A stretch of 64,000 bases of DNA from Zygnema cylindricum (lineage: Eukaryota; Streptophyta; Zygnematophyceae; Zygnematales; Zygnemataceae): assembly GCA_037447655.1 (NCBI GenBank), contig JBBHKE010001149.1:65591-129590 (forward strand). Reading direction: 5' to 3'. The notes under the pieces were generated by a model. It had not been told where the DNA came from. It saw only the letters and a list, made by a program, of their open reading frames with translations, and searched no databases. The translations under genes and the position numbers were made by a program. Shown here piece by piece: positions 6,623-60,504 of the stretch (position 1 is the first letter of the stretch; the number at the start of each line of letters is the position of its first letter).

Positions 6623-8335
6623 CGGATTTGCTCCCTGTTAACAGAGTTCACACTTTTAGATAAGACGCTTGTTTTAGAATCGGAGATGAAAAACTGATAC
6701 GAAGTAAAACTGATAGTGATGGAATCGGATTGCTGCAAAAAGTGAAGTTGGAATGAAGGACCGGAGAGGTACATTTCTATAATACACTGAGAAGGATAAT
6801 ATGGTTGAATGATCCAAATTGCAGACTATAAACCAAAAACCAAGTTTTCGCTGGAATTACTATTCTCATGATGTTCACTTAACTTTTACTTTTTTTTAAG
6901 TTTTGTTTCTCTTTTTCACATTTTTCACAATCGCAACAAAAAAATTGGCTTTCAGAGTCAAACGACGACGTTCAAAATTTTCGATGTCATCTTTGGTTTC
7001 CAATTCTTGACTGCTACAGTGGACAACTTACTTCACATTTTTTGCACGTTTTCACGTATTACGACTCCGTTTTAAACAAATTCATTACAATTAAATAACT
7101 TTGTATTCTCCCTTGTCTTTCGAAGCCTTTAATCTTCTCTTCCCTGTCTTCCTTCCGATGTTCCTCTTGGTTTCTCCCTTTCCTCTCTAGTGTATTTTTA
7201 TTTTTCTTTGGCCTTTTTACAAGTGCATCGGCTTACTCTATCTACTGCATGAAACTCATGAATATGTTTTACTGCATTTCTATGATTTTATCAGCCACTG
7301 TCGAAAACATTCCAAGCAAGATCGTGATATTGCGTCCATTAGGCATGTACACATTTCTCCCTCTTATGTCCCCTAACCCTTCTCTACTTCAGTGGCCTCC
7401 GTGGCTCTCCCTTCAAAAACGCAATATGGTGGCACTCTTCATTTTCATATATGCATTTTTTTTATCTTCTTTTTTGTTGTATGGCTATGTGCAGCCATAG
7501 GAATGTCTGTTTTAGCCAACAAAATATTTTTTCTCATATTCCTGAACAGAGAGTGTAGTCATAGCAGCTCAAATTTGTTCTGTCAACGGCCGCTAATTTC
7601 TATGACAGTAAAAACAATCAGTTCCAGTGGCGTGTTTGGAAGGTGGAAGACTCATCAATGAAGATGTTAGCATCTTTATTGATGTAGAAGTAGCAACCAT
7701 GGGAATCACCAAAGTTTTTCTTTTCGGTTAGTGAAAGCCGGGTTGATTCTAATATCGCATGCATGTTCATTCCTCATCCTTTAGGACCTCTTCCTCTGGA
7801 GAAACTATAGGTTCGGTTATTCATGGTGAGGTTTCTGCTGTACTCTGAGGAAATAAACCATCTTAAGGTGATCAATTTAATGTCCATGATAATGGAGCTC
7901 GTTCAAACGTGATTGGATCTCCTTTTCATATATTGGTTGCATCTTTTCTCTACACATTCAGCTGCCACTTTAGAAAAAAAACATTGTGTTTATGATTCAT
8001 GAGCCTTGATTTGCAACTTGTATACCCTAAAACATATTGAGGACGTTTTATTTAACAGTCAAGATCCTTTTTTCTTGCTTCATTCTTCAACGTTTCATAC
8101 ATGAGTCCGATGAATTCATGGCTGCATCTGCATAACGCCTTTTAGTGAACTGTAGACATTTTGAACCTTTAACTATTTATCGATGAATCACACTCCGTGG
8201 ATTGTGGAACACAATATAATGTGACAAAGTTTTTATGCAAATTTTCACATTTTTTATAAGTAAAGACCTTCTGCATACCATGCCATAGTAAAGTAATTAT
8301 ATATTCAACTCTACAAATTTGTATCGCCAGGCACC
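6623..8335. other. Intergenic, no gene recognised
   Basis: AT-rich upstream region of RadA. The open frames near 7249-7661 are short and hydrophobic by composition, with no recognisable domain or codon bias. I see nothing I can support here. Confidence 0.6.
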
Positions 8336-27432: not shown

Positions 27433-28675
27433 TGAAATTCTATGGGCTCCATTGCCCACAGAATTCGCAGATCCAAAAGAAGCTAATCTAGATAGTGCCG
27501 ACTCCAAGTTGATATAAACCCAAATGAATGATCCCTTGACAATTAGAACCCCAATACACCTTCACCCCTGTGAAGAGAAGACCTTCTGTGTGCTCAGTTC
27601 CACCACAGAATGCAAAGCTTGAATATGTGTTTTGGACAATATTCCCCAATTTGACTTTCCCACTGAATAAGTGCCACCCTGACACGCAAAGACTTTGACC
27701 GACTACACCCCTGTGTAGCTTGGACTCCCCTGAGTCCGCAGCAAAAAGAATCACTGAATTTGCTCACCCGAGCATTAAGTTATGGCTGGTCAAAGATGAC
27801 CTTTATAGTTACAAGCTCTCTTAGAGAGAGAGGTACCTAAATATTACTAAGTCTCGGTCTGCCTACTCACGACTACCTACTACTAAACCCTAGTCCAATA
27901 GGAACACTATATAGTACAAGAAGGTACAATGGGCGATGTACTTATTGTACGACCATTGTACGACAAGGTCTACAAGGTGACACCTGTCAAATCGGAAGCC
28001 ATGGTTCCTCCTCCCATCTTCTCCGGTATCAAATAATGTGGCGCCACGTGGCACCGCGTGACGCTATCTCCGTATGCCGCCAAAAGCTCACTTCGCGTGG
28101 CGGCTATAATGCCGGCCGTCCGATCAAAACATATATTACAAGGTTCAGATTCGCGTACATGCAGGAATTGCTCCTTTTGGTTAGTCTGCTGTTAATTAGC
28201 TGTTGCGTTAATGTTTATATATTTATAAAACCCGTCACGTGTATCGTTTCGATAACGCTTTATTGGTTAAGGTTTACCTCTACAAATATAACCACAGACC
28301 ATGGTTCAAATCTGGTCTAGAGCAACTTTTGGTTATTTGTTAGTTTGTTAGAACTCTCTTCTTGTCCGCTTATAAATGACTATTGTACCCTATATATGAT
28401 ATCGTTTACTCTAAGCCATAGGCTAAAGCTAACGACTATAATAGGATGTAGGTACCGGGATCAAGTCCTTTACTTTAACCTTCACAACCATTTTGGTACA
28501 AACTACGAATTAGCCTATCCTCTTTAGACAGCCATGGCTCTAGCTCTCTCTCTGGTCTTCAGTGACTGCAACAAGTATGGGGACCGGAGAGAGTTGAGTG
28601 AGAAGCAGGTTGCCTTTGCTGACTTACTCTATTTAATTTTCCAATATAGACCTAGAAAATACATAAATTTCAACA
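27433..28675 (-). repeat. 3' LTR of the Copia-type element
   Basis: 1243 bp, same sequence as 30676-31918 by eye. Short open frames within it recur at exactly +3243 in the other LTR. Confidence 0.92.
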
Positions 28676-28686
28676 CTCCCCTTATT
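28676..28686 (-). promoter_or_regulatory. Polypurine tract of the Copia-type element
   Basis: Reads AATAAGGGGAG on the minus strand, immediately before the 3' LTR (TGTTGAAATTT). It sets the orientation of the element. Confidence 0.8.
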
Positions 28687-28957
28687 TTCTAGTCTACTTT
28701 CTTTTCAACTCCCACTAAAAATATATATATAATATTTTTTTTTTTTCTTCTTTTCTTTTTCCTCTTTCTTTTCTCCTCATAAAACTTTAAGTGAATACTC
28801 TCGTATTTTAAAAGGTCCATTAGATGAGCTGAAATAAACATTCCATCTTGCTGATCACATATTTTATCAAGCATACAATTTTCCATAAATCCAAGCAAAG
28901 ATTTTATCCCACTCATCTCTTTTCCATCCACATAGAATCCGATTTCCCTCTTGCAAT

Positions 28958-30337
28958 TCAAAAAACCAGCCCCATCCCCAATCTGCGACCACACCCAGAT
29001 GCTAACCCTTTTACAGGCACACCACCATAAATGCCATCACTCCCATTAGTGATGTCAAAACCATTACCCCCCATATTTATCGTTATATCAAGAGTCCCCA
29101 CTAAGTTCCTCATAAAATCTACATCTTCCAAGCTCATATTTTTATCCATGATACTCACCCCATTTTCTGAACTTTCCTCACTCTCTCCCATGGAATTCTT
29201 TCCACTATCACTTTCTATAATGATTCCCAAAGAGTATTTCTCCTCCCCTAAGCTTTTCATTAAATATTTCTTTTCTCCACTATCATTTAAAACCCCCTCT
29301 AGTTTTACTTCTCCCCTTTCCTCCAAATCCGTTGAAGTCTCCTTTTCCAACCAGTTTTCTGTTTCCCAAATATTTATAGAATTATCCTTATTATTTTTAT
29401 TTTTCCCTTTTTCATTTATGTATCCTAGATCTGACTTTCTCATTTCTAACTCATACTTTCTACACTCCTTGACATCCTCATCATTTCTAACTCCCTCAAG
29501 TACCTCCCTTCCCTTTACTTCCCTTATACCTCCAAAAGCACATCGTTGCTTTCGTGTAATTTCCGCGTACTTCTCTCTCTTCTCCATTCTACCAATGTGA
29601 AGAAGCTCCAATATTTCTTCATCCTCTTTCTCCTCTTCCCCTTCTTCCTCCTCTTTCACATTCCAACTTCTAAGTTCTTCCAAACAAGGACACTCCTCTA
29701 TATAGTGACCCGGTTCTCTACAAAAGAAGCAAACACCCTTTTTCAAAGCTCCCTTTTTTTTTCCTCTCCCTCTCTTTCCACCAAAGTTCTGATAAGGTTT
29801 ACCTTCGTCTTTCTTCCCCTCATCACGCTTCCGCTCGTCACCGCCGTTCCTCTCATCACGCTTCCGCCAATCACCACCAGCTGTAAATACAGTTACCTTC
29901 TCACTTCCCATACGAACCTCCAAAGTGCTTTCCCTCACAAGAATTATCCCCATGGTGAAGCTCCAAGTCCATGAGGAGCCATCCATTGCCTGCATCCGAT
30001 AAATGATGTTTTCGTACTCATCTGGGAGTTTCATGAGTAGTGTATTGATCAATCTCTCCTCAAATTCTACATACCCCGCACTAGCAAGCTCAACATATAA
30101 CGCAGCAATATCATTGCAAAACTCTATCTTGTTACCGCCTTTATAAACATAGGCCTCTATTTTCTGTTTTACTAACTGCTGCCTCTGAATAGTCTCACTC
30201 TTATAAATCAGCCTTAGTGTTTCCCATATTTCCGAAGACTTAGTAAGACTTAAAAGAGTGATAGCTATGGACTTAGACACATATCTAAGTATAAGATGTT
30301 TTGCTATTGTTTTTATACTCCCAAATTTTACTATCAT
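28958..30337 (-). CDS. gag: Copia-type Gag (UBN2-like) with CCHC zinc knuckle and long acidic tail
   Basis: About 459 residues. The N-terminal third has the Copia gag pattern (SSEIWETLRLIYKSET, LINTLLMKLPDEYENI). A zinc knuckle CFFCREPGHYIEEC (CX2CX4HX4C) follows a basic GGKRGRGKKKG stretch near the middle. The last 240 or so residues are Glu/Lys-rich and contain no protease or integrase motif. Family role: capsid formation and RNA packaging. The N-terminal Gag segment is in another frame upstream (30414-30719), so this frame probably starts after a frameshift. The first Met is therefore only nominal. Confidence 0.82.
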   Translation of the reverse strand: MIVKFGSIKTIAKHLILRYVSKSIAITLLSLTKSSEIWETLRLIYKSETIQRQQLVKQKIEAYVYKGGNKIEFCNDIAALYVELASAGYVEFEERLINTLLMKLPDEYENIIYRMQAMDGSSWTWSFTMGIILVRESTLEVRMGSEKVTVFTAGGDWRKRDERNGGDERKRDEGKKDEGKPYQNFGGKRGRGKKKGALKKGVCFFCREPGHYIEECPCLEELRSWNVKEEEEGEEEKEDEEILELLHIGRMEKREKYAEITRKQRCAFGGIREVKGREVLEGVRNDEDVKECRKYELEMRKSDLGYINEKGKNKNNKDNSINIWETENWLEKETSTDLEERGEVKLEGVLNDSGEKKYLMKSLGEEKYSLGIIIESDSGKNSMGESEESSENGVSIMDKNMSLEDVDFMRNLVGTLDITINMGGNGFDITNGSDGIYGGVPVKGLASGCGRRLGMGLVF

Positions 30338-30413
30338 ATTCTTCAGTTTTACTTATAACCCCCCTAAATGAAGATGTGGCAGAGAGCATAGCTCCCCTCA
30401 CCATAAGTGTCCT

Positions 30414-30719
30414 TTAATCCTTCTCCCCTATTTCCCCATCCACTGAAAAGTTTTTCCCTTCACCTTTTGATTCATCTGAACTCCGTTTGATATTCTGGGC
30501 AGCCTCAGATGATTCTCCATAGTAACCTCCTCCAAAGCCAGGTGGCGGACATCTCACTTGTCCCGAAACAATTCCCCATAAGTGCTTCTCAAAAAGCAAC
30601 CCCTCCATTGTAAACTCCCAATAAGTAAAGTCTGTTCCATTGAACATAGGCACCCTAGATGGTGGGCCCATAACCTGAAATTCTATGGGCTCCATTGCCC
30701 ACAGAATTCGCAGATCCAA
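30414..30719 (-). CDS. Copia-type Gag N-terminal segment
   Basis: Begins at or near MGPPSRVPMFNGTDFTYWEF, a typical N-terminus of Copia Gag (DUF4219-like, with the FNGTDF.YW pattern). It is followed by a short Gly/Ser/Glu-rich part and a TAA. The upstream Met codons lie in the LTR. It is out of frame with the main gag frame, so gag is either split by a frameshift or expressed by recoding. Confidence 0.7.
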   Translation of the reverse strand: MDLRILWAMEPIEFQVMGPPSRVPMFNGTDFTYWEFTMEGLLFEKHLWGIVSGQVRCPPPGFGGGYYGESSEAAQNIKRSSDESKGEGKNFSVDGEIGEKD

Positions 30720-31918
30720 AAGAAGCTAATCTAGATAGTGCCGACTCCAAGTTGATATAAACCCAAATGAATGATCCCTTGACAATTAGAACCCCAATAC
30801 ACCTTCACCCCTGTGAAGAGAAGACCTTCTGTGTGCTCAGTTCCACCACAGAATGCAAAGCTTGAATATGTGTTTTGGACAATATTCCCCAATTTGACTT
30901 TCCCACTGAATAAGTGCCACCCTGACACGCAAAGACTTTGACCGACTACACCCCTGTGTAGCTTGGACTCCCCTGAGTCCGCAGCAAAAAGAATCACTGA
31001 ATTTGCTCACCCGAGCATTAAGTTATGGCTGGTCAAAGATGACCTTTATAGTTACAAGCTCTCTTAGAGAGAGAGGTACCTAAATATTACTAAGTCTCGG
31101 TCTGCCTACTCACGACTACCTACTACTAAACCCTAGTCCAATAGGAACACTATATAGTACAAGAAGGTACAATGGGCGATGTACTTATTGTACGACCATT
31201 GTACGACAAGGTCTACAAGGTGACACCTGTCAAATCGGAAGCCATGGTTCCTCCTCCCATCTTCTCCGGTATCAAATAATGTGGCGCCACGTGGCACCGC
31301 GTGACGCTATCTCCGTATGCCGCCAAAAGCTCACTTCGCGTGGCGGCTATAATGCCGGCCGTCCGATCAAAACATATATTACAAGGTTCAGATTCGCGTA
31401 CATGCAGGAATTGCTCCTTTTGGTTAGTCTGCTGTTAATTAGCTGTTGCGTTAATGTTTATATATTTATAAAACCCGTCACGTGTATCGTTTCGATAACG
31501 CTTTATTGGTTAAGGTTTACCTCTACAAATATAACCACAGACCATGGTTCAAATCTGGTCTAGAGCAACTTTTGGTTATTTGTTAGTTTGTTAGAACTCT
31601 CTTCTTGTCCGCTTATAAATGACTATTGTACCCTATATATGATATCGTTTACTCTAAGCCATAGGCTAAAGCTAACGACTATAATAGGATGTAGGTACCG
31701 GGATCAAGTCCTTTACTTTAACCTTCACAACCATTTTGGTACAAACTACGAATTAGCCTATCCTCTTTAGACAGCCATGGCTCTAGCTCTCTCTCTGGTC
31801 TTCAGTGACTGCAACAAGTATGGGGACCGGAGAGAGTTGAGTGAGAAGCAGGTTGCCTTTGCTGACTTACTCTATTTAATTTTCCAATATAGACCTAGAA
31901 AATACATAAATTTCAACA
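30676..31918 (-). repeat. 5' LTR of the Copia-type element
   Basis: 1243 bp. The sequence just inside it reads GGTTATGGGCCC on the minus strand where a primer binding site is expected. I cannot assign a tRNA. Confidence 0.92.
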
Positions 31919-45665: not shown

Positions 45666-47357
45666 AATAGTATTTGTATTTGGGTTCAGTTGTATCTTGA
45701 TACTGTATATTGGACATTCTCTATGGTGTGGAATAGAGGAAAAATGGAAATTGATTTATTTACAGTTAGTATCGGTTGCTTGACATTTCCAAGGGTATAT
45801 TTAATAAACCAGTTACGTAGAGTAATTTTCTGGTTATATCCATTTGTAAATCAGTATGACCAATTTTTTGATCCTGAAAAACTATCATTTTTTCATTTTC
45901 GAAATTTTTGTGCCACGAGGCTTCTTAAAAGGATTTGGAAGAAATTTTCACTTATCGTTTTTTTTTCACTTTTTTTCGTTCTTGTTTGTTTGTCAACATG
46001 GTAGCAAATATCGTCAAATTGGGTTGATATTCTACAACTTAAGCAGGACATGAATTCCAGATCTTTGGTAATTACAAATTAAACTTGCTGGAATACATTA
46101 AAACATTTATGTAACTGTTTTTGCCTTACATTATTCTACAAATGCTTATGTGAAAAGAGATTTGTTTTGCTCCGCGTGTTGGCACTAAACATTATATCCC
46201 CATTGCTTATTTGAACAGTTCATATTGCCAACAAGATAACAAATAGACATGTTTGTCATGCTGTAAGACGTCAGCGGGTATTGTGGTTAAATTAGGTACT
46301 AATTGAAGTTTCGGTGACGTGACAGGCTCATATACGAGAGTACAACTAGAGATTCGTACGGGACAAAGGTCGGAATATACTCTCGTACGGTACCACGGGA
46401 ACACGATGTGAAACCAGCGTGGAACTGGACCGCGGTACGGCATTAGACGTCAGGAATTCAAACGGCACCTGACAGGTGTCTGAAGTCATGAACCCTTGGA
46501 GGTTCATGCATCATCCCTTGGAGGTTCATGCATCATTTTTGCTTAGCTTAGGGAGGGTTTTTATCCTCGAGGTGTAGATGTAAGGCAATCTGAGGCGGCC
46601 ACGCAACGGTCGTCTCTTGAAACTGGCAGCGTTTTAACATAGAAACCTGCCTGCTCAGAGACATGTAGGAATTAGTGTTGCCGTACGGATTAGTGAAAGC
46701 ATAGGATAAATGCCATTTGGCGAGATAATAACTTTTGCAAATTAAGTACGTGAATCCAACATTGGAAGGTTGTCGTTTTTTGACAAGCATTATTCTCGGG
46801 ATTTGTCGAACTCTGTCGTTATGGTTTCACTTGAATATTTAGTGAAAGGCTAGTTTTTGAGTTAGGGTTTTTCCTTTTTCAGACCCATGGTTTCAGGCTA
46901 GTGATTGTCTCTGAGTTTTTCCTTCTCTTTGTACTAAGACCTTACCTAATCTACCGGCGCAAGCCAGCCTGCAAGGTTTCCCTCCAGACTATCTTCTACT
47001 TGTTGTGATTTGTGAATTGTGTTTGTGGACTTGGTGTTTTCTTGCTGTTTGGACAATGACCGTACGTGCTAGTACTCACCTTGTCTGGCCTTGGAGGAAT
47101 ACCGGTTATCTCTCTTCTTTCATCCGGCTAAGGAAGGGTTCTCACCAGCTGATTGGACTCCTGTAGGGAATATTGATGACTTCAGGGCCTAGTGGCTACT
47201 GTCGCAAATATTCCCGTACTTAATTTGTTTCTTTCTAATTTTCTTTATTCCTTGTGTCAATTGTTTTCTTTCTGTCTAGTTTATTTTCATTCGTTTCATT
47301 TCCAATATTCTTTATTCCTGGTGTCTTCGGTCTAGTTTGTTTGGAATTTGTTGAAAT

Positions 47358-47648
<291 letters not shown>

Positions 47649-48015
47649 GTTGCACGAATTATCACGAAAATTATCATTGCTTTATAGACGGGCAGAGCGT
47701 GGCATAGTGCTGATACGCGTGCCCTAACAGGCTACTAACTACGTTGGTAACTACGTTGGTATTTTAAGCTGTGATCTCTTTTCGACGATTCAGAATTGGA
47801 GGGAGGTTGGAGCATCACAATAAGACCTTACCGATCGCTCCAGATGAGTAATCGGGTCCTTGTGGTTGCAGGCGCGTGATAGGTTGTTAAGCGCGATAAC
47901 CTAAAGGGGTTAGGATCCGACCGAAGACTGTGCCTTCCTTTCCGCATAGGCATTGTGGTTGCATTTTCTTTAGATTTGACCGTGATTGGTCTTGGATAGC
48001 GAATTCTTGTCTATT

Positions 48016-48201
48016 ACATCTGGCCCTGTTGGGCCAAGATAATTTCCTGTTTTATTACATCTGGCCTTGTTGAGCCAGGATAATTTCCTGTTTTATTACA
48101 TCTGGCCTTGTGTGCCTTAGATAGTTTCCTGATTTCTACATCTGGCCTTGTGGGCCTTGAATAGTTTCCTGTTATATTAAATCCGGCCACAAGTGGCCTT
48201 G
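48016..48201. repeat. Minisatellite of about 45 bp, four units
   Basis: Units share ACATCTGGCC(C/T)TGTTG and ATAATTTCCTGTTTTATT, diverging towards the right. It lies inside the presumed 5' LTR. Confidence 0.8.
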
Positions 48202-48530
48202 CATAGGTGACATGTTTCTTCTTGGAGTGGCTTGAAGTGACTTATTATGGTATTGCTTAGATCTGGTTGTGACAGCCTTGTTAGGGGTGTTCACGATTAG
48301 ACTAACCCCGGTGATACAGAATAGATCAAATGGTTCGGAGGTGCCTGGTTGCGTGAGTTCCTGTTTGCGTGAATTTAAAGACTTCCTGTGTGAATTGATT
48401 AATAGATGTGGCAGTGGGCATATGCCCACTGACCCTGAGTAGGGTCTGGCATCTAGTAGCATCCAGATAGGACGACCGGACTACTCTCTGTTTACATGCC
48501 AACAGGTTGGAACAATTTACTGTTTCCAAT

Positions 48531-48548
48531 TGGTACCACTAGGAGCTC
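48531..48548 (+). promoter_or_regulatory. Possible primer binding site
   Basis: TGGTACCACTAGGAGC starts two bases after the presumed LTR end. It resembles, with changes, the initiator-Met site TGGTATCAGAGC common in plant LTR elements. Confidence 0.4.
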
Positions 48549-48576
48549 CAATGTATACCGTTGACCGGATCGGGAT

Positions 48577-49814
48577 TTGATTCCCGATCGCTCACCTCTT
48601 GTCCAGCTTTTAGGTCATACTGGTCAGTCTGCTCAGTCTCAGCTTACGGGTTCACTCGACTCTAGATCTGGTATTACCAGCACGTATAGATCTACTTCAT
48701 CTGTCTCCTCATCCTCTTCCCATAACTGGGGGGAAGATTCAGACATAGACTCCCTTGATATCCGAGATCTAAATCTACCATCTTCGCTTATTCTTTTGAG
48801 TGGAAATATTCACACTAACTCCGATTCCTATTTTGTGGATATGGCCTCGTCCATAGACACCGGAGGAGGTAGAAATCAGTTTTGTTTTTCGGGTCTCAAG
48901 GACACTATGTCTTTGTCACATTTTCGAATTCTTTTTGATTTGGAGATGCGCGATCTTGCTTTCCGGTATCAAGACCGTTATGATTTACGGGTTGCTTTTT
49001 CGTTACTTGGGCGATACCTTAGGGGATCTGCCCTATCTCTATATACACGGAAATATGCGGCTTTTTGTGCTATGACAGAAATGGCACCTGCATATTCAGG
49101 ATCTTTAGCCATAACAGGCAGTCCAAAAATTCTTTTCCAAGCTGCTGTACCCGCAGTTTATGACCCTGCAGGCAACGAAATTTCACGTGAAATACCTGAG
49201 GTCCCTTGTCAACGAAATTTCACCTGAAATACCCGAGGTCCCTCATCAGTTCGTCGTTGCGGCTCGGGCTGCAATCCCAACCCGCCCTGCAATGCTGGTT
49301 CCTCTAAGGGATCCGTGTTCCTCTAAGGGATCTAGTATCATTTGTTTTAAGTTTATCACAGTAAGAGTACCGAATGCACAATCCCGATCAGGTTAAAGAA
49401 CTAATGAATTTCGAACGTCGCCCAAGCGAAACCGCTCCGGCATTGCGAGCACGTATGGAAACATTACGTGAAGCACTGCCAGATCTCATGTCAAATGCAG
49501 AGGTAGTTCAGAAATTTGTGGGGCAATTTCCCACCCATTCTCGACGTTTCATTCAAAGCCATTTGACAAAGGCATATGGCCTCAAATTAACTTTCGAGCA
49601 GGCTGCAGAATATGCTGTACGGTATGAAATGCAGACCAGCTGGTGGGACGCTCACGAGCGACCTAAGTCTTCTCCTAATGCAAACCCGAATCCTTATCCT
49701 AATCCTCGCAACCCATGGCCTAATCCGAGACCTCCAAGGGCTCAGGCTATGGGAACATTAACAACAAACCCTGGTGTTCGTTTATGTTTTCAATGTGGTA
49801 ACACTGGTCACGAC
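48577..49814 (+). pseudogene. gag: Gypsy gag, first part, frame-broken
   Basis: 48577-49227 starts MIPDRSPLVQLLGHTG and contains a Ser-rich region and a SHFRILFDLEMRDLAFRYQDR helix-type segment. 49374-49814 carries the typical Gag core (RPSETAPALRARMETLREALPD, KFVGQFPTHSRRFI), a Pro/Asn linker and the start of a zinc knuckle (CFQCGNTGHD). Between them, a 37-bp tandem duplication (49173-49209, 49210-49246) and a 19-bp one (49300-49337) shift the frame. The solo LTR interrupts it at 49815. Confidence 0.82.
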
Positions 49815-50933
49815 TGTTGAAAAATAGATATTTTATGTTCTATCTTTTGTTTTTGGGTCCTGTACTTCTCATACTTGTCGTAGTCACTGAGAATTGGCAG
49901 GCAGCCATGTCTGCCTTACACAGATGAGGAGATAGGCAGAAGATTATGCTCCTGCAAAAGTAATACTGGCACCGTCAAGAACTGATCCCTAACCTCCGGA
50001 CAACAACCGTACGATCTTGGCGCCCGCTTTAAACGTCAGGTCTTGATGAATCGTGACATACATTGTATTTGATATTTATTTAAACTCATATCTACGGCAC
50101 ATTCCATTTAACATCCTACGAATCGAAATGCAACATGGAACGTATGGTAGCGCACGAAATGTAGTACCGCACGAAATTAATGAAACAAACATTTAATTTC
50201 GACGGACGAAATTAAATGTCGCGATCGACGGTTCACAAAGTGAGAACGAATTTCAAATGGTAAACACGGAATGTTGACCGTCGAAATTCAACGGTCAACA
50301 CGGAACTTTGACCGGTGAAATTCAACGGTCAACATTTATTCGGCGCGCCGTCAGATCCAACGGCTGAAATCGAGCGCCGTAAAACGAACGAACGGCACGC
50401 ATGAGTGCTGGTATGCCGGAACTACTATATGGGAGCAGTTCCGCAAAATGGGAGGAAATGACACGTGGCATTATCCTATTGGATGTCGGAAGAGAAAAGG
50501 GACAGAATGACGTTGACCTATTTGCCACGTGGCAGACCGGGAGTGGTGCCGAATATATCCGTACATAAAGTACGACGACTTCTGTACTTTATATGTACGA
50601 TAGTTAGGGTACTCTATTTTGATTGGTTTAGAATAGCTATTAGGAGTTTTTCAGGACTTAGAAAAATATTGAAAAGTCCTCTCTCTCCTAGAGGCCATCT
50701 GTACAAATATGCTGTCTTTGAATAGCCATAACTTAATGCTCAGGTGAGAAAATTCTGTGATTCTTTTTGCAGCGGACTCAGGGGAGTCCAGGCTACATAG
50801 GGGTGTAATCAGTCAGAGTTTTTGCGTCTCAGAATGGGACTTATTCATTGTCAAAGTCAAAAGTGCATATACTATTCTAGAGGCTTTATATAAGCTGGAC
50901 ATTCTGTGTACCAATGGAGGTCACAGAATTACA
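49815..50933 (+). mobile_element. Solo LTR of the Copia-type family, inserted in Gypsy gag
   Basis: Begins TGTTGAAA and ends AATTACA, flanked by the 5-bp duplication ACGAC (49810-49814 and 50934-50938). It is a diverged relative of the LTRs at 27433 and 30676 in the opposite orientation; it shares GATTCTTTTTGC, GGACTCAGGGGAGTCCA and AGCCATAACTTAATGCTC. Internal sequence and the second LTR are gone, as expected from LTR-LTR recombination. Confidence 0.9.
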
Positions 50934-50938
50934 ACGAC

Positions 50939-51226
50939 GGGCGTAGCTGGCCGGATAAGACCGCCACATGTACTCATTGTAATCAAACGGGTCATTATGT
51001 AGATCGATGTCACATTAAAAATCTTGATTTCAGTTATCAAAATCAAATAAAAAACGGCGGTATACTTGCTCGTTCGGCAAAATTGGTCACTCCACCCAAA
51101 GGAGTAGAGAAAGACAACCCTCCAAAAATCAGCAGGAGGGACCGAGAGAAAGCTGAGATGCAGGCTATCGTAGGGGCTATAATGAAGGAGCAGTTTGCCG
51201 CGCTTATGGCGCAGGTCAAACCGTAA
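50939..51226 (+). pseudogene. Gypsy gag, continuation with zinc knuckle
   Basis: The frame interrupted at 49814 resumes exactly at 50939. A knuckle CTHCNQTGHYVDRC (CX2CX4HX4C) binds nucleic acid in this family. The following basic/acidic stretch (RRDREKAEMQAIVGAIMKEQF) is coiled-coil-like. It ends in TAA. Confidence 0.8.
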
Positions 51227-51247
51227 TTAACTGGAATGGCTTGAACT

Positions 51248-51979
51248 GTGGTCCATATGTCCTCTTTTGCTAGGCGATCTTTGCGGGAGTCCACTGTTCA
51301 ACAACGGGCAGCTCAGTTTAAAGGGACTCCCGATCATAATCGTGAGTCAAAATCCATTAACACGCATATCCCACTATCATTTGCTAAAGAACCCCGCTCC
51401 CCTATTCCAGAAACGGCTTCAAGCATCACCGCTGAAGCATTAACTATTTTAGAGAGGAGCATACAAGACACATATAAGGTCAAAGAACAGTTGTCCATCC
51501 TGTCCACCATGCTTCCCGAGTTGGATAACAACGAAAAAACTATAGATCTAACTCCTTTAGCAGTTGCGTTACAAACATTACAAAACCATCGTAATGCTCT
51601 CTCCCTTCAAGCTATTACTATTGAAGAGCGCTCTAGTCTCACTCCTCACATCAGTTTTCTAGATAACAAATTGGGCGTGTTCACAGTTAATGGGTTTGCT
51701 CCGACACTTCCTCTCATGAATACAGGTGCAAAGCTAATTATCCTCGGTTCTGATTTTGACATCAAAATAGGTCTTACAATAGATAAGCTACAACCCACTA
51801 CCACACGTCCATTGATTTCCGCAGATACCAGTGAGCCAGTCCTCGGCATTACGATGGACCCAATCTGTTTTCAGTTTCAGAGTCAGTCAGTGACGGATTT
51901 CGCAGAAATTTATGCTGACGCCTTGGTCACCAAGTGTAGTGACTATGAATGCTTGGTCGGTCAAGACGTTATTTTCTGA
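51248..51979 (+). pseudogene. Gypsy retropepsin-like protease region
   Basis: About 240 residues. The C-terminal half has the aspartic-protease layout (FTVNGFAPTLPLMNTGAKLIILG ... CLVGQDVIF). The catalytic DTGA is NTGA here; the Asp codon position is 51719 (AAT), a G to A change. The frame ends at TGA 51977, directly before a G10 run. Confidence 0.75.
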
Positions 51980-52128
51980 GTTGGGGGGGGGGTTGATATG
52001 CATGATCAAACATTTTCGTACAGCCTAACAATTTTCCGAAATGCAAAATTTGCTTACCCCTTATCTCGGCCCGAACACCCATGCCTACTACGGCCCATTC
52101 GGCGCTGATCTAGCCAGCCTATGCCGCA

Positions 52129-53340
52129 CTTGGCATAGGTGCAGACATCCTTGAATCTCTAACAGTGGATGAAATCTCACCAGATCCCTTAGGTTTACCA
52201 GAATTATTTAGTACACCAGGATTTATCATACATTCTTCGGGGTTTGACCAACTTTATAAATTTACTATACCAATTTCTTTATGTAGTATTCCACATCCAC
52301 CCTCCATTACGATGGATCCGTCCGGGTTCCTACCCATTAAATGGACACCGGTCAATTTAGAACCTCACCAAAACGGTCTCGTTATCTTGGACCTTTTTGC
52401 CGGAATAAGGACTTCACTTCTCTCATGCCTTTGGAACGGTCTTCTGATAAAGCATTACTATTCTGTAGATATTGACCCTTTTGCTAGACGCGCTCAATTG
52501 CACCACAGTCAAGTCTTGCACGAACATTATCTTCATCTCTTACCCCAGTCTGCGTTTCACGATATGCATTCAGCCTTGCCACAAGATATTCGACTAATAG
52601 GAAATCATCATTTAATGGAATTGGAACCAATTGATCTCCTCTTTCCCGGATGGGAATGTTAGGGTATGTCTAGGGCCGGGAAAGGTTTAGGTCTCGCAGA
52701 TCCACGTACTAAGTTGTTTTTCGAGGTGGTGCGACTTATCCACTTCTTCCAAAAACTAGACCGTCCTTTTGGATACATCATAGAGAACGTCGCAGCTTAT
52801 AATGACCCCTGACCTACAATCCTCGCTGATTATAAACGCATTGAATCAATAATTGGACCACCACAGATCATTGATGCCGCACGCCACGGTTGGCTGGCCC
52901 ACCGGGTTCGTTCCAAGTGGACTAACGTGGTGGACATGGGCCGGCTTCGAGAGGCTAACCTCGATGTCCGACCACCAAACCTTTCCATTCAGGATGCTCT
53001 TCTTCCATTTCATAAAGTCCAGACATGTATACTGACAGACTATCCTCCTCTATTTGGTCTTAACATCCCGGGCCAGCCACTACGTGCACTGCCTACACTA
53101 GTTGCATATCCACACTCTCACGCATACTCACATAATGGACTGGGCATGCTTCAGAATACACATACAGGCAGCTTAGAAGAACCTACTGCCACAGAACTAG
53201 AACATCTTTTACATTTCATCTCAGGCACCACTACTGCTTCGAGACTCACCAAGAGGCAGCGCTGCACCTTACTTGGTCGTGTCATGGATCCCCAATCACT
53301 ATCATTTGTCTTAGGCATGCGGTTCGCAGCTGGTCGATAC
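52129..53340 (+). pseudogene. Cytosine-5 DNA methyltransferase domain (DNMT3/DRM-like) inside the Gypsy polyprotein
   Basis: A single frame from about 52129 carries the C5-methyltransferase motifs in order: I, VILDLFAGIRT (52381 on); II, YSVDIDPFARR; IV, LLFPGWEC with the catalytic Cys at 52657 and the usual next Gln replaced by TAG; a conserved SRAGKGLGLADPR; VI, IIENV (ENV 52783-52791); VIII-like HRVRSKWTN (52900-52926); then LPTLVAYPHSHAYSHNGLG and EPTATELEHLLHFISGTTT...RCTLLG. Two stops, TAG at 52660 and TGA at 52810, break it without changing frame. The HR.R..WTN motif favours the DNMT3/DRM or phage-type group over DNMT1. The known reaction is transfer of methyl from S-adenosylmethionine to cytosine C5. 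It lies between the protease and RT and is bracketed by poly-G runs (51983-51992 and 53368-53376). Confidence 0.85.
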
Positions 53341-53625
53341 GCACAAAAACATCCGTCTCAATCAACTGGGGGGGGGCATACACCATCTAAACACACAGCT
53401 TCCAAGTCCTCACCTTCTCTTCGGGGTATAATTTTTAAGCTTGCTTTTTTTCCTTTCCCCAATAAGTCTGACACAGATCACACTATTTATGATTTTTTGG
53501 AACCTAGTCACATGAGCTGGTCTCTCCCAGAATACACAGCCGCTAGATCTCAGGTACCAGTACGGGCATCACCACACTAGACAGCTGCATTTCCGTCTAG
53601 AAGTTGGCATCACGCTGTAAATTGT
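53341..53625 (+). pseudogene. Linker between methyltransferase and RT in the Gypsy pol
   Basis: Same frame continues after the methyltransferase (KHPSQSTGGGHTP...) with a G9 run at 53368-53376 and a TAG at 53578. No domain is recognised. Confidence 0.55.
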
Positions 53626-54447
53626 TTGCATCAACTTACTGTCGAGTATGATTTGGGTCACTCCTTGATAGCAGATGAACAGCTAGCATTCGTACAACCC
53701 ATGGAAGCCATGACCATTAACACGCCTGAAAAACCGGCATGGAAATTCGGAACTGGACTAACAGAAACTGAACACGAACTTTTAGATGAAGTCATAAACC
53801 GGAACGTAGACGCATTTGCTTTCTCCATGAAAGACTTAGGTCGACACACCACTTACAAAATGTCTATTGACTTGGAAGATGACAGACCTATATTTAAGCC
53901 TAAGCATCGCCTATCCGAGACTGAATGGGAATCTGTAGACAAATGATGCAAAGAGTTAGAAGAGGTAGGTTTGATTAATAGGCCCGATTCCACTTTCGCG
54001 GCGCCCACGGTCATGCCCCGTAAAAAAAACGCAGAGGGGAATTTTACAGAAAGTCGCATGTGTGGGGACTATCGAAAACTGAATTCACATACAATCCAGG
54101 ACCGACATACAATGCCGTTGGCCGAGGATATTTTTGATCACGTGGGCGGAGCTAATTATTTTAGCATCCTAGATGTGCGACAGGGATTTAATCAAATCAA
54201 AATAGAAAAAAAAGATCGACACAAAACTGCATTTTGGGGTAGTGAAGGACGTCGGGAATGGGCGGTTATGCCTTTTGGACTGAAAAATGCACCGGCAGTA
54301 TTCCAGAAAGTCATGGACTCAGTGTTGGGGGGATGTAAGTTTGCCCGTTGCTATATTGACGATTTAATCATCGCTTCAACCTTGTATAGAGGAACATGCA
54401 GTGCATATAGAGTGGGTGTTGAGGGAATTAAAAAAGGTAGGACTTAA
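53626..54447 (+). pseudogene. Gypsy reverse transcriptase, palm and fingers
   Basis: Contains the pre-RT segment (YKMSIDLEDDRPIFKPKHRLS), LINRPDSTFAAPTVMPRKK, CGDYRKLNSHT, YFSILDVRQGFNQI, FGLKNAPAVFQ and the catalytic YIDD (54352-54363). A TGA at 53944 (probably a CGA codon originally) and a one-base frameshift near 54385 break it. RT copies element RNA into DNA. Confidence 0.88.
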
Positions 54448-55310
54448 ATCTCATCTTGCCAAATGTACCTTTGGGGCCGAAGGGGTTCCATACCTTGGGC
54501 ACTTTATCTCATCTAAGGGAATTACTCCGGTAGAAGTCAAAGTGGAAGCAATTAGTAAACTACCGGCCCCAACTGATTTGACTAGCCTGCGTGCATTTCT
54601 GGGGTTAGCCAATTATTACCAACGGTTTGTTCCTAGTTTCAGCACACTTGCATCTCCATTAAATGAACTCTTGAAGAATTCAGTCCCGTTCACGTGGGGA
54701 CCCTCTCAGATCGAGGCATTTCAGGGCTTAAAGGATGCACTATCCACCGCTCCTATTCTTCGTCCCCCAAATCATAAGTTACCATTTTGCCTACAAACGG
54801 ACTTTGGTAAGCCCGGTATTGCAGCCATCCTAACTCAGCGTGAACTCACATGTGAGGAATATGTGGTGGCTTATGCCAGTCGGAGGAACAATCAAGCGGA
54901 GTCAAATTATAGTAGTTATGAGGTGGAGTGCCTTGCCGCAGTTTGGGGTATTGTGCATTTCCGACATTACCTCTATGGCAAGCCTTTTACCCTTCTTACT
55001 AACCATCAACCATTGCATTGGCTCATGACCAATGACAAGCTATCCGGCAAATTAGCCCGTTCGGCTCTTATTTTACAAGAATATGACATGGAAATAATCT
55101 ATCGACCCGGGCTCCTCAGTTTGAATGCCGACGGCCTCTCCAAGAACCCTTTGCCCCACTCTAATGATAATGGTGTGCGACAAGATTTTGATGACGGATC
55201 AGTTGCCTCCTTATCAGCCGGAGCACATCTGATTTACAGTTTTGCAGCACCTACAAGCCACAAAACCGAACACGATCCATGGCGGGACACTGTTTTAATT
55301 ATTTTCCTAT
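54401..55310 (+). pseudogene. Gypsy RT thumb and RNase H
   Basis: Continues RT (HIEWVLRELKKVGLKSHLAKC, LGHFIS, LRAFLGLANYYQRFV) into RNase H: LPFCLQTDFG, SSYEVECLAAVWGI, TLLTNHQPLHW and LNADGLSKNP. The third acidic residue of RNase H is Asn (TNHQ for TDHQ, codon at 55001), another G to A change. Confidence 0.88.
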
Positions 55311-55500
55311 CTACACAGTCTTTCCGGGCGGGCACCCTACCAATGGAAAAGGAGCGTGTTTGTAAGAGAGCCCAAAGTTACCTATCGATGGGGGGCTCAC
55401 TTATTCTACACAGTCTTTCCGGGCGGGCACCCTACCAATGGAAGAGGAGCGTGTTTGTAAGAGAGCCCAAAGTTACCTATCGATGGGGGGCTCACTTATT
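55311..55500. repeat. 95-bp tandem duplication in the Gypsy pol
   Basis: Units 55311-55405 and 55406-55500 differ at one base seen (AAAAGG/AAGAGG). The length is not a multiple of three, so it shifts the pol frame between RNase H and integrase. Confidence 0.92.
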
Positions 55501-56600
55501 CGTCTTCTCTCAGATAGAAGTCATCACGGCCGACGGAACGACTATCATTTATCAACCAAATTCATACTGACCTTGGACACTATGGCACCAAACGGAGTTT
55601 GAGTTTGGTACAGGCACGGTATTGGTGGTCTGGCATGCACGCTGATGTGGCGGCTGTGTTGTAGGAATACAACACATGTGACTGGCGACGAACTTCATTT
55701 TCTAACCGACAGACCTCCTTTCAGCCCTTGCATATTCGGGGTCTCTTTTACAAGTGGTCGTGTGAATTGGCTAGTCCCTTTCCAATCTCGCGAAGGGGCA
55801 AGCAGTACATTATGATTATGATCAAAAATTTTAGCAAATGGGTGGAAGTTGTGGCCCTCTCGCAAAAAACTGCCAAACTCACCACTACAGCTTTCAAAGA
55901 GCATGTGCTTCTCCGATATGGAGCCCCCGCAGAAGTATCTACCGACCAAGGAACTGAGTTCTGTGGCGAATTTGAGGAGATGCTAGACGAGGCGTTAATC
56001 GATCATCGGCGGACAAGTCGAGACCATCCTCAAGCAGACGGTTTGGTAGAGAGAGCTGTACAAACCTTTAAGCGTGCTTTGCGTAAACATTGCTTAGAAA
56101 AACATATTACGGTGTGGGATGAATTATTGGGATATATTGTCATGGGTTATCCCATGTCTGTACATGCCAGCCTGGCAAATTTCAGCCCTTACTATGTGTT
56201 GTTTGGTCGAAAACAACTACTAGGTATGAATGTACAGAAAGCCGCGAGCTTACCTCAACCTCTTATGTCTGATTCTGTGTTTTTGGAAGAACTAACTAAC
56301 CGAGCGTTGCTTTTGTTAGAGACATATGCCCATTGCCTTTGAAAACTTGCAGATTGCCCAACATCGCGACTCCTTACGGTATGGGACGACTTGCAGTGGC
56401 AGCTACCGGCCACAACAAAAACCCTTCCGGGTGGGGGATTATGTTTATTTGTGGCGGCAAACTTTTGACACACTCGACACGGATGTTTCGGCTCACATTT
56501 TGATGATAACCAAAATCAACGCCAATGGATGATTAAGCTTACAAGGGGATGACACCCGAACTTTGCGGGAGCATTTGAAAAATTGTTCCCCTTGCAATCT
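55501..56600 (+). pseudogene. Gypsy integrase
   Basis: A damaged HHCC zinc region lies at about 55555-55680 (IHTDLGHYGTKR, ARYWWSGMHADVA; the first Cys is lost at a stop). The catalytic core at 55728-56342 has YKWSCELASPFP where the first Asp is expected (Glu at 55764), STDQGTEF (Asp 55944) and DGLVERAVQ (Glu 56049, 35 positions later). The C-terminal part at 56326-56532 (FRVGDYVYLWRQ) ends at TGA 56530; QGDDTRTLREHLKNC follows in frame. Integrase inserts the cDNA. Confidence 0.85.
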
Positions 56601-56651
56601 ACCCGACCTTTCCCACAACATGGACCCGTGGCAGATGCCGATTATTGAGGC

Positions 56652-56860
56652 CACTGGGTGTTAGTTGTGTCAGCGACACTGGGTGTCAGTTGTGTCAGCG
56701 ATCTGATGGAGAAACAATAATGCTTCTTGGCGACTATTGCAATTTGGGATTCCATATGGAGTGTTTGGTTCCACCTCTGCATACTATCCCGGCTGGACAG
56801 TGGTTTTGCCACGGATGTCGCGACCTACCGGCAGTTTTTACCAGCTCCTCCGAAGGCTAA
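56652..56860 (+). pseudogene. C-terminal PHD finger of the Gypsy polyprotein
   Basis: CQLCQRSDGETIMLLGDYCN followed by GFHMECLVPPLHTIPAGQWFCHGC: a C4HC3 PHD pattern, with Gly where the third Cys is expected (LLGD for LLCD). PHD fingers read histone H3 tails; the chromodomain of many Gypsy integrases plays a similar targeting role. A 25-bp tandem duplication (56652-56676, 56677-56701) sits at its first Cys pair and shifts the frame; unit 1 has TTAG where unit 2 has TCAG. Confidence 0.85.
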
Positions 56861-56866
56861 CGAGCT

Positions 56867-56880
56867 GGGGGGGGGGGAAA
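56867..56880 (+). promoter_or_regulatory. Polypurine tract of the Gypsy element
   Basis: G11 followed by AAA and then TGCCATTC, the likely start of the 3' LTR. A shorter copy (CTGGGGAAATGCC) recurs at 57822. Confidence 0.65.
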
Positions 56881-58066
56881 TGCCATTCTTACTTACCCGA
56901 TCTTGTTTTGTCTTTTATTTCTTTGCTAAGTGTAGGTGTTCGAAATAATTTGCTTGTTTTCGGGCATATTCATTTATTATTTCTTGCGCTATATATGTTT
57001 TGTACTCTGATTGTGGTCACAAATACTGTACATATGTAATGGTCATTCATTTTTTGGTGTTTATCGGTGACCCACGCGGGATGTGATGCATGCCATTCAC
57101 GGTTGTACTGTCATGTACGACAGCTGTCACGGTGTAAGATGTCAGCGGGTATTGTAGTTAAATCGGGTCTTAATTGAAGTTTTGGTGACGTGACAAGTTC
57201 ATATCTCAGAGTACAACTAGAGATTCGTACGGGACAAAGGTCGGAATATACTCTCGTACGGTACCACGGGAAAACGATGTGAAATCAGCGTGGAACTGGA
57301 CCGCGGTACGGCATTAGACGTCAGGAATTCAAACGGCTACAAACTTGACAGGTGTTTGAAGTCATGAACCCTTAGAGGTTCATGCATCATTTTTCCTTAG
57401 CTTAGGGAGGGTTTTTATCCTTGAGGTGTAGATGTAAGGTAGTCTGAGGCGGCCACGCAGCGGTCCTCTCTTGAAACTAGCAGCGTTTTAACATAGAAAC
57501 ATGCCTGCTGAGAGACATGTAGGAATTAGTGTTGCCGTACGGATTAGTGAAAGCATAGGATAAATGCCATTTGGCGAGATAGTAACTTTTGCAAATTAAG
57601 TTCGGGAATCCAACATTGGAAGGTTGTCGTTTTCTGACAAGCATTATTCTTGAGATTTGTCGAACTCTGTCGTTAGGGTTTCACCTGAATATTTAGTGAC
57701 AGGCTTGTTTTTGAGTTAGGGTTTTTCCTTTTTCAGACCCATGGTTTCAGGCTAGTGATTGTCTCTTAGTTTTTCCTTCTCTTTGTACTAAGACCTTACC
57801 TTATCTACCGGCGCAAGCTAGCTGGGGAAATGCCATTCTTACTTTCCCGATCTTGTTTTGTCTTTTATTTCCTTGCTAAGTGCAAGTGTTCAAAATAATT
57901 TGCTTGTTTTTCGGGCATATTCATTTATTATTTCTTGCGGTATATATGCTTTGTACTCCGATTGTGGTCACAAATACTGTACATAAGTAATGGTCATTCA
58001 TTTTCTGGTGTTTATCGGTGACCCACGCGGGATGTGATGCATGCCATTCACGGTTGTACTGTCATG
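56881..58066 (+). repeat. 3' LTR region of the Gypsy element, with a 250-bp segment present twice
   Basis: 56881-57115 and 57831-58066 are near-identical direct repeats (TGCCATTCTTAC ... GGTTGTACTGTCATG), 950 bp apart. Between them, 57133-57822 matches the 5' LTR portion 46262-46975. The LTR therefore appears to restart at its own beginning and the rest of it is missing. Confidence 0.75.
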
Positions 58067-58075
58067 CATGACATG

Positions 58076-59100
58076 TTAAAATTATACATTTATTCCGTCC
58101 ATTATCTTAGAGAGACTTATTATTGAAGTGTTGACCTTTGTGCCTTTCACAATGCTCACGGTTCATCCACTAACCTCTAATTTTGGTGCATTGTGGTGAA
58201 ATTGAATTGTTGAACGGATGGATGGTTGTGTGGTTGTTCATGTCGATGCAAAAATTTTGAGGTGTAAAAAGCAAAAAAAATGATGGAAAGGTAGATTTAA
58301 ATGTCACACGGTGGCCGATAGATAAACGACAACGATACGTAGTTGACAACTTTTTTTCTTTGGTTTTCGTCATTTATTTTTATTTTTGGGGTGAGGTACA
58401 ATACGGAGGAGCGCGGTCACATGACTACTAACGATGAAGCCTGGCGAGAGGGGATTGTGGCGACGTGGCTCGCCACTTGGCGTCGCAAGGCAACAAGTCA
58501 AACATCGTCGCTATGTCAATCGCAACGGTTGGTGCAATAAGCTAATTTTTCCAACCATGGTATGTCACTGCACAAACAACACCTCTTAAAAGACGCGGTG
58601 GCGATTGTTTGGTTGTTGGACCATACAAGGCGACCCCGAGACGCGAAGAAAATAATAAAAAGGTTTCGCACATTTGTTTTTTTCTGTGCGACTTATATTT
58701 TGCCGTTCGGACAATTTTTGTTTCATAGGTCGTACATTCCTTGCGTGTCACACATGCCAAATCCAACAGTGTATATGTCAACATGATGCCACATCAAAGT
58801 TTTAGCCATGTAGAAATTGCCTTTTTTACAACGACTATTGAAGACTATCCCTAATCAATTGCAATATATATATAATCAAAATAGGGGCAAAGTAAATTGA
58901 CTTGTGTCTTTGTCCTCGGTAAAATGATCCGAAACTAAGGGTACTTTCCCATGTGCTAAAGTTACAGTTATTTTCTCTAGGTTTCCTCCATAACGTAGAA
59001 AAAAACGTGAAAATCTGCAACCGTACCAAAAAATTGAAATTACCATCTTACAAGCTGCTTTATCTTAAAACTATATATGTACTACAGTTTATGGTGGTCC
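58076..59100. other. Intergenic, with one isolated PIF-type terminus
   Basis: No gene is seen. TAAGGGTACTTTCCCATGTGC near 58937-58957 matches the left ends of families D and E next to a TAA, but no right end was found. Confidence 0.5.
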
Positions 59101-59104
59101 ACAA

Positions 59105-60504
59105 TACTAAGCTGCAGTATTGGGGGGAAGATATGAGCACCGCCGTGTACCTGCGTAACAGATGTCCCACCCAAACATTAGACAACTCCGCATCGTTTGA
59201 GCAGTGGCATGGGTTCACATCGAACCTATCCCACCTAAAAGTGTACCTTTCCCACCTGAAAGTGTTTGAGAGCTGGGCCTATGTGTTTAACCACAACAAC
59301 AAAGGAGGGAATTTAGGACCAAAGGCCATTGAGGGGACATTCTTGGGGTATGAAGAGCACAGTAAGGCATACATAGTGCTAAAAACATTAATAAGACGAT
59401 CATCATCAGCAAAGATGTAAGATTCAGTGAAAAACCAATGTCTAATGACAGTGAGAGTGAACAAAGAGGTGAGGCATTTACCTTGAACGAACAGGTGAAA
59501 CCAATGTTTTCAAACCCATCCTACATTTCGCCACGAGATGTTGATTTAGAGGAGGACACAGATGACTTTCCTCCAGATCGAAAGACTCCTGAAAAAGTAC
59601 AAGCGCAAGGGCAAACAGAGTTGGAGTTAGAATCAGAGATCACCAAAACTGCATAGGAGATTATCACACGAAGTAAAAGAGGTGAGGCTAAGAATGCAGC
59701 GGAAGCAGTGGTGGAAAGGAAAAGAAATGGGACCCAAGAGCAAACCAATAGCAAAACGAGTTGACCGACCGAGCCGAGTCAAAAACCCACCGAACAAGTT
59801 CTGTAAGTGGGTGGAGACGTCAAAGATTCCAAGGATGGCGCGGGTTGAGGAACCATCAACTCTCAGAAGTGCTTTTGCAAGTGAAGACTCCGATAAGTGG
59901 AAGGCCGCCGCTAATGAAGAGATGGCTTCCATTCTCAAGAATGGCACATGGACACTGGAGGACCTGCCATTGGGGAGAAAACCAATTGGGAGTAAGTGGA
60001 CCTATAAGATAAAAATAAACGTAGATGGAACAATTGAACGCTACAAAGCAAGGTTGGGCGCTAAGGGGTACACTCAGAAGAAGGGCATAGACTACAAGGA
60101 GACATTCACATCGGTCGTGAAATTTACCTCAGTTTGGGCACTTCTTGCCCTCGCCGCCATCCTCGACTTAGAAGTTGAGCAGATGGATGTGAAAATGGCC
60201 TTCCTCCACGGGGAACTCGTGGAGGAACTCTACATGACTCAACCAAAAGGGTATGAGGATCGGATGAACCCCTATAAGGTTTGCAAACTCTTAAAGGCTT
60301 TTTACGGCCTTAAGCAATTTCCCAGATTATGGATATTAAGATAGATGAATATTTGTAAGAAGAGGGATTCATAAAAATTCAGTGATCACTCAGTATATTA
60401 TCACCCAGAAAGCAAGATAATCATAACAATCTATGTAGATGATCTGATGATCCTAGGAAAAACTAAGGATGTAAGCACCTTAGTACAAAAACACCTTGAA
60501 TGAA
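59105..60504 (+). pseudogene. Truncated Ty1/Copia pol (integrase end and RT)
   Basis: Integrase C-terminal signature: WGEDMSTAVYLRNRCPT, FEQWHGF, LKVFESWAYVF and LGYEEHSKAY. It contains a 21-bp in-frame duplication (about 59226-59267). Then RT: KWKAAANEEMASILKNGTW, GSKWTYKIKIN, KARLGAKGYTQKKGIDY, VEQMDVKMAFLHGEL, KAFYGLKQ and YVDDLM (tat at 60432). Frameshifts and stops occur at 59417-59440, 59653 and 60342-60400. The sequence ends abruptly after VQKHLE at about 60501. No LTRs are present, so it is a fragment of an inactive element. Confidence 0.88.

Follow-up and report, generated by a model that had tools for sequence, protein, structure and literature searches.

The element at positions 46254-58073 of the window (the whole 64,000-nucleotide stretch of Zygnema cylindricum DNA analyzed here) is probably a decayed, DNMT3-bearing retroelement of the Ty3/Gypsy type and of the KnitGypsy-Dnmt3 kind, for which insertion would proceed from a cDNA circle with joined ends; this is the best explanation of the evidence as a whole. 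Its sequence gives the polyprotein order gag, protease-like region (PR), DNMT3-type methyltransferase, reverse transcriptase (RT), RNase H (RH), DDE integrase (IN), and PHD finger. It belongs to a many-copy family with at least one very young copy (the related locus L009), in which the DNMT3 and the PHD finger are kept under selection, and the old window copy decays like silenced DNA.

Architecture of the element and identity of its methyltransferase

The features of the element are as follows:

46250-46253 (no strand): left 4-bp target-site duplication, TGTT, from comparison of the ends
46254-47210 (+): B1, left terminal repeat, beginning TGTCATGC; matches positions 1-931 of the L009 B repeat at 85.5%
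48565-49224 (+): gag-like ORF, N-terminal part; similar stretches in related loci, no Pfam match
49365-49817 (+): gag-like ORF ending in a zinc-knuckle-like stretch; the L009 counterpart matches zf-CCHC at E 0.058, under the cut-off
49815-50933 (no strand): later insertion, foreign to the element; TG start, CA end, 5-bp duplication ACGAC, and a break here in the alignment to L009
51245-51976 (+): aspartic-protease-like region, in a frame other than that of the methyltransferase; no Pfam match in the window
52114-53577 (+): DNMT3-type cytosine methyltransferase (PF00145; DNMT3A in the PDB), with stops at 52660-52662 and 52810-52812
53947-54444 (+): reverse transcriptase (PF00078, 2e-19), followed by a frame shift
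54368-55567 (+): end of RT and RNase H (Pfam), including a 95-bp tandem duplication at 55310-55499
55665-56339 (+): DDE integrase core, degraded (PF00665, 3.4e-11)
56633-56857 (+): PHD finger, C-terminus of the polyprotein (PF00628, 7.2e-10)
56867-56877 (+): run of 11 G, polypurine-tract-like, at the start of A1; a G-run lies at the equivalent place in L009, L014, L016, L011, and L028
56876-57122 (+): A1 repeat, from repeat comparison
57125-57822 (+): B2 repeat, 3′ part absent, from repeat comparison
57824-58073 (+): A2, right terminal repeat, ending GCATGACA, from repeat comparison
58074-58077 (no strand): right 4-bp target-site duplication, TGTT, from comparison of the ends

The domain order PR-RT-RH-IN with a DDE integrase, as in Ty3/Gypsy elements, is present, with a protease match that lies under the Pfam cut-off (Asp_protease_2 for the L009 counterpart, E 6e-4, 20.9 bits, cut-off 24.3). 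Full LTRs at both ends are not found; the repeats are split (B1...A1-gc-B2-A2), and thus the element is Gypsy-type by its domains and not by its ends. No primer-binding site was identified for it. The window copy is dead, by virtue of its stops, the change of frame in RT, the 95-bp tandem duplication, a solo-LTR-like insertion in gag, and the shortened B2. The putative first catalytic Asp of its integrase, at a position assigned by eye, is changed. The tandem duplication, which lies between RNase H and integrase, has units 99% identical to each other and is single in L009. The insertion in gag (TGTTG...ACA) is probably a solo LTR left by an LTR element of the ordinary kind, and its 5-bp duplication is unlike the 4-bp duplications of the surrounding family.

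A sequence-only reading of the window had placed the motifs of a cytosine methyltransferase in one frame inside a Gypsy pol, flanked by protease and RT. All the named motifs (DLFAG, VDIDPFAR, GWEC, ENV, and AHRVRSKWTN) indeed lie in frame 1 (+) of 52114-53577, and the order of the flanking domains holds, but the frame is broken by two stops (the first immediately 3′ of GWEC) and the protease-like ORF lies in another frame. Because of these stops, the window copy yields no full enzyme. The stops do not figure in that reading, nor do the PHD finger, the split repeats, and the missing proline. The profile search proposed in that reading returns PF00145 (DNA_methylase) for the segment with stops read as X (E 7.3e-9, 35.9 bits, cut-off 22); two pieces of the segment searched separately give no such Pfam match. 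The L009 counterpart matches the same profile at 1.5e-12 (48.1 bits). In the PDB, the best solved relative of the window segment is DNMT3A (E 3.6e-9).

Six related copies from this genome were aligned over approximately 52351-53340 of the window segment, and the alignment, used as a profile against the PDB, again places DNMT3 closest among solved C5 enzymes (DNMT3A 4.7e-18, HhaI ~1e-7, DNMT2 3.1e-6, DRM2 1.1e-5). Motifs I to VIII align with those of DNMT3A and DNMT3B in the same linear order; the catalytic Cys, the residues of the SAM motif, the E and N of ENV, and the Arg residues of motif VIII occur in order and are invariant in all six copies. DRM rather than DNMT3 is rejected both by this order, which is not the rearranged one of DRM, and by the far weaker DRM2 match; the "DRM-like" of the sequence-only reading does not hold for motif order. 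DNMT3A and DNMT3B have ADD and PWWP domains, neither of which Pfam reports in the element ORFs scanned, and they have Pro before the catalytic Cys where the window's lineage has Glu. Judged by the profile and the remaining motifs, and with the proline of the family signature missing, the segment is a C5 cytosine methyltransferase of variant form.

Relatives in the genome and the residue before the catalytic cysteine

Searching the genome (352.8 Mb in 2689 contigs) with PF00145 gave at least 123 scored matches among 782 candidates, and searching it with the window segment gave at least 88 scored loci (the window and 87 others) among 2002 candidates, at E < 1e-168. One PF00145 match (L007) is the exon of a host gene, with 4fsx, the maize chromomethylase ZMET2, and related entries as its closest matches (8.1e-28 to 8.8e-28, vs. 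~7e-12 for the best other DNMT1 entries), which points to a streptophyte as the probable host. Twenty loci were fetched at 10 kb, of which 15 belong to the window's lineage and five to a sister lineage that is ~40% identical to it in the methyltransferase.

PR, methyltransferase, and RT follow each other in order on one strand in 14 of the 15 window-lineage loci, the exception (L025) combining pieces of two copies in opposite orientation. In L009, an open frame of 2395 aa carries gag, PR, methyltransferase, RT, RH, IN, and PHD finger, all in frame 1; the pieces match in Pfam, with zinc knuckle and protease under their cut-offs. RT was found downstream of the methyltransferase in four of the five sister loci (all except L027), and the protease query matched none of the five. 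For copies of this genome, a tree of the methyltransferase (21 rows) and one of RT/RH/IN (20 rows) give the same groups; their deeper branching orders differ and are weakly supported.

Pairwise dN/dS values for the methyltransferase are 0.16-0.23 for L009/L017, 0.12-0.23 for L012/L013 (two stretches), and 0.17-0.19 for two stretches of L009/L025, with 0.66 in a third stretch of 49 codons. For L014/L016, young copies with few changes, two stretches give 0.31-0.36. Between subfamilies, dS exceeds 1.2 or is not computable, and dN is 0.11-0.29. By these sequence comparisons, the methyltransferase is mostly under purifying selection. Because of this, and because it groups with its pol, the methyltransferase belongs to the element. 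That the element merely inserted at the site of a host methyltransferase gene is scarcely credible: the separate host gene with an element around it, which the sequence-only reading had named as the refuting case, is not seen, and a host gene flanked by an insertion is ruled out by the recurring arrangement together with the matching tree groups. The proposal that a Gypsy pol captured a DNMT3-related enzyme, placed between its protease and its RT, is thereby borne out.

Pro directly before the catalytic Cys is part of the PROSITE signature of C5 enzymes, conserved and not catalytic, and to our knowledge nearly universal among them. At this position (motif IV), all 24 window-lineage loci have Glu, and all 19 sister-lineage loci have Pro. 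These 43 distinct loci comprise the window and 42 of the at least 123 PF00145 matches, with the host-gene exon left out; they are related to each other and were found by a profile that favors the motif, such that they are not independent trials and the constancy of the Cys partly reflects how the loci were chosen. The Glu codon varies (GAG in 16 loci, GAA in eight), and therefore it is the residue that is kept and not the codon.

Because the proline is missing, the activity of the window-lineage enzyme is uncertain. It is conceivable, if on balance unlikely, that it is no longer a DNA methyltransferase and that the Glu-for-Pro form serves in another role, such as RNA methylation or nucleic-acid binding during particle assembly. 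Such a change of role would accord with the maintenance of Glu-Cys by selection in the 24 window-lineage loci, and with the behavior of the Klebsormidium enzyme, which gave no methylation in yeast, a result that its authors call inconclusive in that human DNMT3B also failed (de Mendoza et al., 2018; main text of PMC5890265). On the other hand, a dead enzyme would not be expected to keep the catalytic Cys, the residues of the SAM motif, Glu and Asn of ENV, and the arginines of motif VIII invariant across the six aligned copies, and the profile prefers DNMT3A over DNMT2. The Glu-Cys lineage and the Pro-Cys sister lineage in one genome constitute a natural pair for probing the role of the proline.

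Split repeats, target duplications, and insertion

Circularly permuted "split" repeats are otherwise known from tyrosine-recombinase elements, and DIRS elements are not known to make a target-site duplication. In L009, L014, and L016, the repeats occur in the order B1-coding-A1-gc-B2-A2. B1 and B2 of L009 are identical over 931 bp and its A1 and A2 are 99.6% alike; the corresponding values are 99.64% and 99.47% in L014, and 99.5% for both pairs in L016. The window copy has the same order, with K2P distances of 0.062 (B1/B2; 90.6% identity over 720 columns) and 0.050 (A1/A2). L010 shows A1-B2-A2. L011 and L028 have the full order with A1/A2 95-96% alike and B1/B2 only 80-83% alike, and are probably mosaics between copies.

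Perfect 4-bp direct duplications lie outside B1 and A2 in seven of the 13 copies with both ends readable (TGTT in the window, TTGG in L009, AAGG in L014, CCCT in L016, GGAG in C591, CCAT in C232, and GACA in C262), where chance would give approximately 1 in 256 per copy. Each of the three copies with a measured B1/B2 identity of 99.5% or more has such a duplication; L011, L028, C1959, C802, C233, and C308 lack it. The pairs of the C-numbered copies were picked by hand among the matches listed (100 of 141 places of the pattern), and C233 and C308 come from 100 of 141 and 100 of 298 places listed, in each case regardless of flanks. The 13 copies exclude C193 and C677 (no A2 end located within the retrieved stretch), C1807 (left end an internal junction), L010 (no B1 found), and L015 and L017 (repeats not found). 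In the sister lineage, L012 and L013 carry each repeat only once (B-coding-A) and are not flanked by a 4-bp duplication, even though their frames are open over 1520-1525 aa; this form could be either a recombination product or the insertion of a one-LTR circle. Recombination between copies could account both for the copies without a 4-bp duplication and for the B-coding-A copies.

The split repeats might instead derive from ordinary LTR elements (LTR = A+B), in tandem or recombined, with loss of the left A. The G-run at the start of A1, as in front of an ordinary LTR, and the existence of the mosaic copies are in keeping with such an origin. We regard it as improbable: in L009, L014, and L016, the repeats are near-identical (B1/B2 99.5-100%, A1/A2 99.5-99.6%) and the outer ends of B1 and A2 abut perfect 4-bp duplications, and for this reason the permuted form is the inserted form. 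An ordinary LTR element with a tandem neighbor is rejected on the same evidence.

Still less probable is that the element is of the DIRS type and relies on a tyrosine recombinase for integration. The B1-coding-A1-B2-A2 arrangement is the DIRS repeat order (legends of Figures 1 and 4 of PMC5890265), and nearly half of the readable copies (6 of 13) lack the 4-bp duplication; however, the ORFs scanned match a DDE integrase (rve) in Pfam but no tyrosine recombinase (PF00589), and the duplications are present at the other seven copies. On these grounds, a DIRS element is strongly disfavored. The 4-bp target duplications favor a DDE integrase over a tyrosine recombinase.

The preferred reading is that the element probably inserts from circular DNA. 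Reverse transcription would start at the G-run of A1 and proceed as far as the end of B, giving an LTR composed of A+gc+B; the ends of the cDNA would then be joined into a circle, a putative step, and the integrase would open this circle at the near-palindromic ...CGACA-gc-TGTCA... junction and insert it. The "gc" lies between A1 and B2, and copies that have duplications lack it at their outer ends; in L011, it is also found after A2. Opening of a circle at CA-gc-TG would account for the permuted form of the repeats, the precise joint between B2 and A2, and the missing outer "gc". The combination of permuted repeats with 4-bp duplications amounts to a concrete, testable claim, namely that a DDE enzyme integrates from circles; a literature search for split repeats with a DDE integrase found no report among the papers listed. 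A fuller scheme may be put forward tentatively, as possible rather than probable: a DDE integrase that opens a circle at the internal CA-gc-TG instead of inserting linear ends, and a Glu-Cys DNMT3, kept by selection, that acts on the circular DNA jointly with a PHD finger reading histones.

Known elements, the PHD finger, and silencing

The published precedent for methyltransferase capture by retrotransposons to which the sequence-only reading appealed does exist. KnitGypsy-Dnmt3 of Klebsormidium nitens, reported by de Mendoza et al. (2018; PMC5890265), has a DNMT3 inside a Gypsy Pol and, as described in the text and a figure legend there, shares with the window element the Gypsy domains, an un-rearranged DNMT3 in Pol, and DIRS-like split repeats, a likeness drawn by description. 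Its methyltransferase is reported to be under purifying selection (Ka/Ks < 0.2), as is that of the window family, and K. nitens is stated to have fewer copies than Symbiodinium (main text of PMC5890265). SymbioDIRS-Dnmt3 of dinoflagellates likewise has a DNMT3 in Pol and split repeats, but it is described with a tyrosine recombinase and a DIRS-type RT, whereas the window element has a DDE integrase and the Pfam domains RVT_1 and RT_RNaseH; the isolated SymbioDIRS-Dnmt3 domain methylates CG in yeast (PMC5890265). According to a survey from 2025, which cites the 2018 paper, streptophytes and dinoflagellates have DNMT3 in "LTR Copia and DIRS" elements (PMC12344493). Searches for later papers on plant elements with a DNMT yielded nothing further among the papers listed. 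In the main text of PMC5890265, the terms zinc finger, proline, circular, and PHD do not occur, and target duplication occurs once, for the LINE; this term search covered the main text, and the features may be shared. Thus, the DNMT3-bearing Gypsy kind is already known, and the C-terminal PHD finger, the Glu-for-Pro exchange, and the 4-bp duplications are not in that text as searched.

The window PHD finger retrieves PHF12, BAZ2B, and other PHD fingers from the PDB, and that of L009 matches PF00628 at 1.8e-11. By tblastn, the domain is present in 14 of the 15 window-lineage loci (all except L024) and in none of the five sister loci; by eye, L012 and L013 have a PHD-like Cys/His pattern at the equivalent place. 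Its dN/dS is 0.10-0.29 in three pairs. Chromoviruses are Gypsy elements with a chromodomain after the integrase. They thus resemble the window element in having a chromatin-reader domain fused behind the integrase, with a probable targeting role, and differ from it in that the reader is a chromodomain and not a PHD finger. The PHD finger might read histone H3 and steer insertion, a step we offer as a guess. Literature searches on PHD fingers in Gypsy elements found no report among the papers listed, and a term search of the text of Neumann et al. (PMC6317226) gave no occurrence of PHD or methyltransferase.

From L009 to the window copy, C-to-T or G-to-A changes affect 83 of 726 CG sites (24 of 566 in reverse), 93 of 717 CHG sites (23 of 567 in reverse), and 92 of 1920 CHH sites (78 of 2051 in reverse). 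L017 and L024, compared likewise, have the CHG bias and a weaker CG bias. The loss of cytosines at CG and CHG, with hardly any at CHH, suggests that plant-type host enzymes methylate the old copies and that these copies are silenced; given this decay of the window copy, the methyltransferase cargo seemingly does not spare the element from silencing. Silent Klebsormidium copies of KnitGypsy-Dnmt3 are reported to have CHG and CHH methylation (main text of PMC5890265), a counterpart to the CG and CHG decay of the window copy. That elements carry the very kind of enzyme that silences them is a paradox. For DIRS elements, the 2018 authors proposed that methylation of the new DNA copy lets it pass as host heterochromatin (PMC5890265, main text); by a similar guess, the DNMT of the Zygnema element would place 5-methylcytosine on new DNA copies, which could then pass as host heterochromatin. 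The suggestions in the sequence-only reading that the element could methylate its own cDNA and so tune host silencing are not supported by these results.

Other parts of the window also contain element-like sequences. Positions 27841-28320 and 31084-31563 give the same 159-aa translation, and between them lies a gag-like ORF on the minus strand (28958-30352) that shows a zinc-knuckle pattern; the whole (27841-31563) looks like the LTR pair of another element. Downstream of the retroelement, at 58923-60344, ORFs resemble fragments of Copia integrase and RT by eye. Additionally, 5885-6637 (-) is an exon-like ORF with a zinc-ribbon pattern, presumably resembling RadA/Sms.
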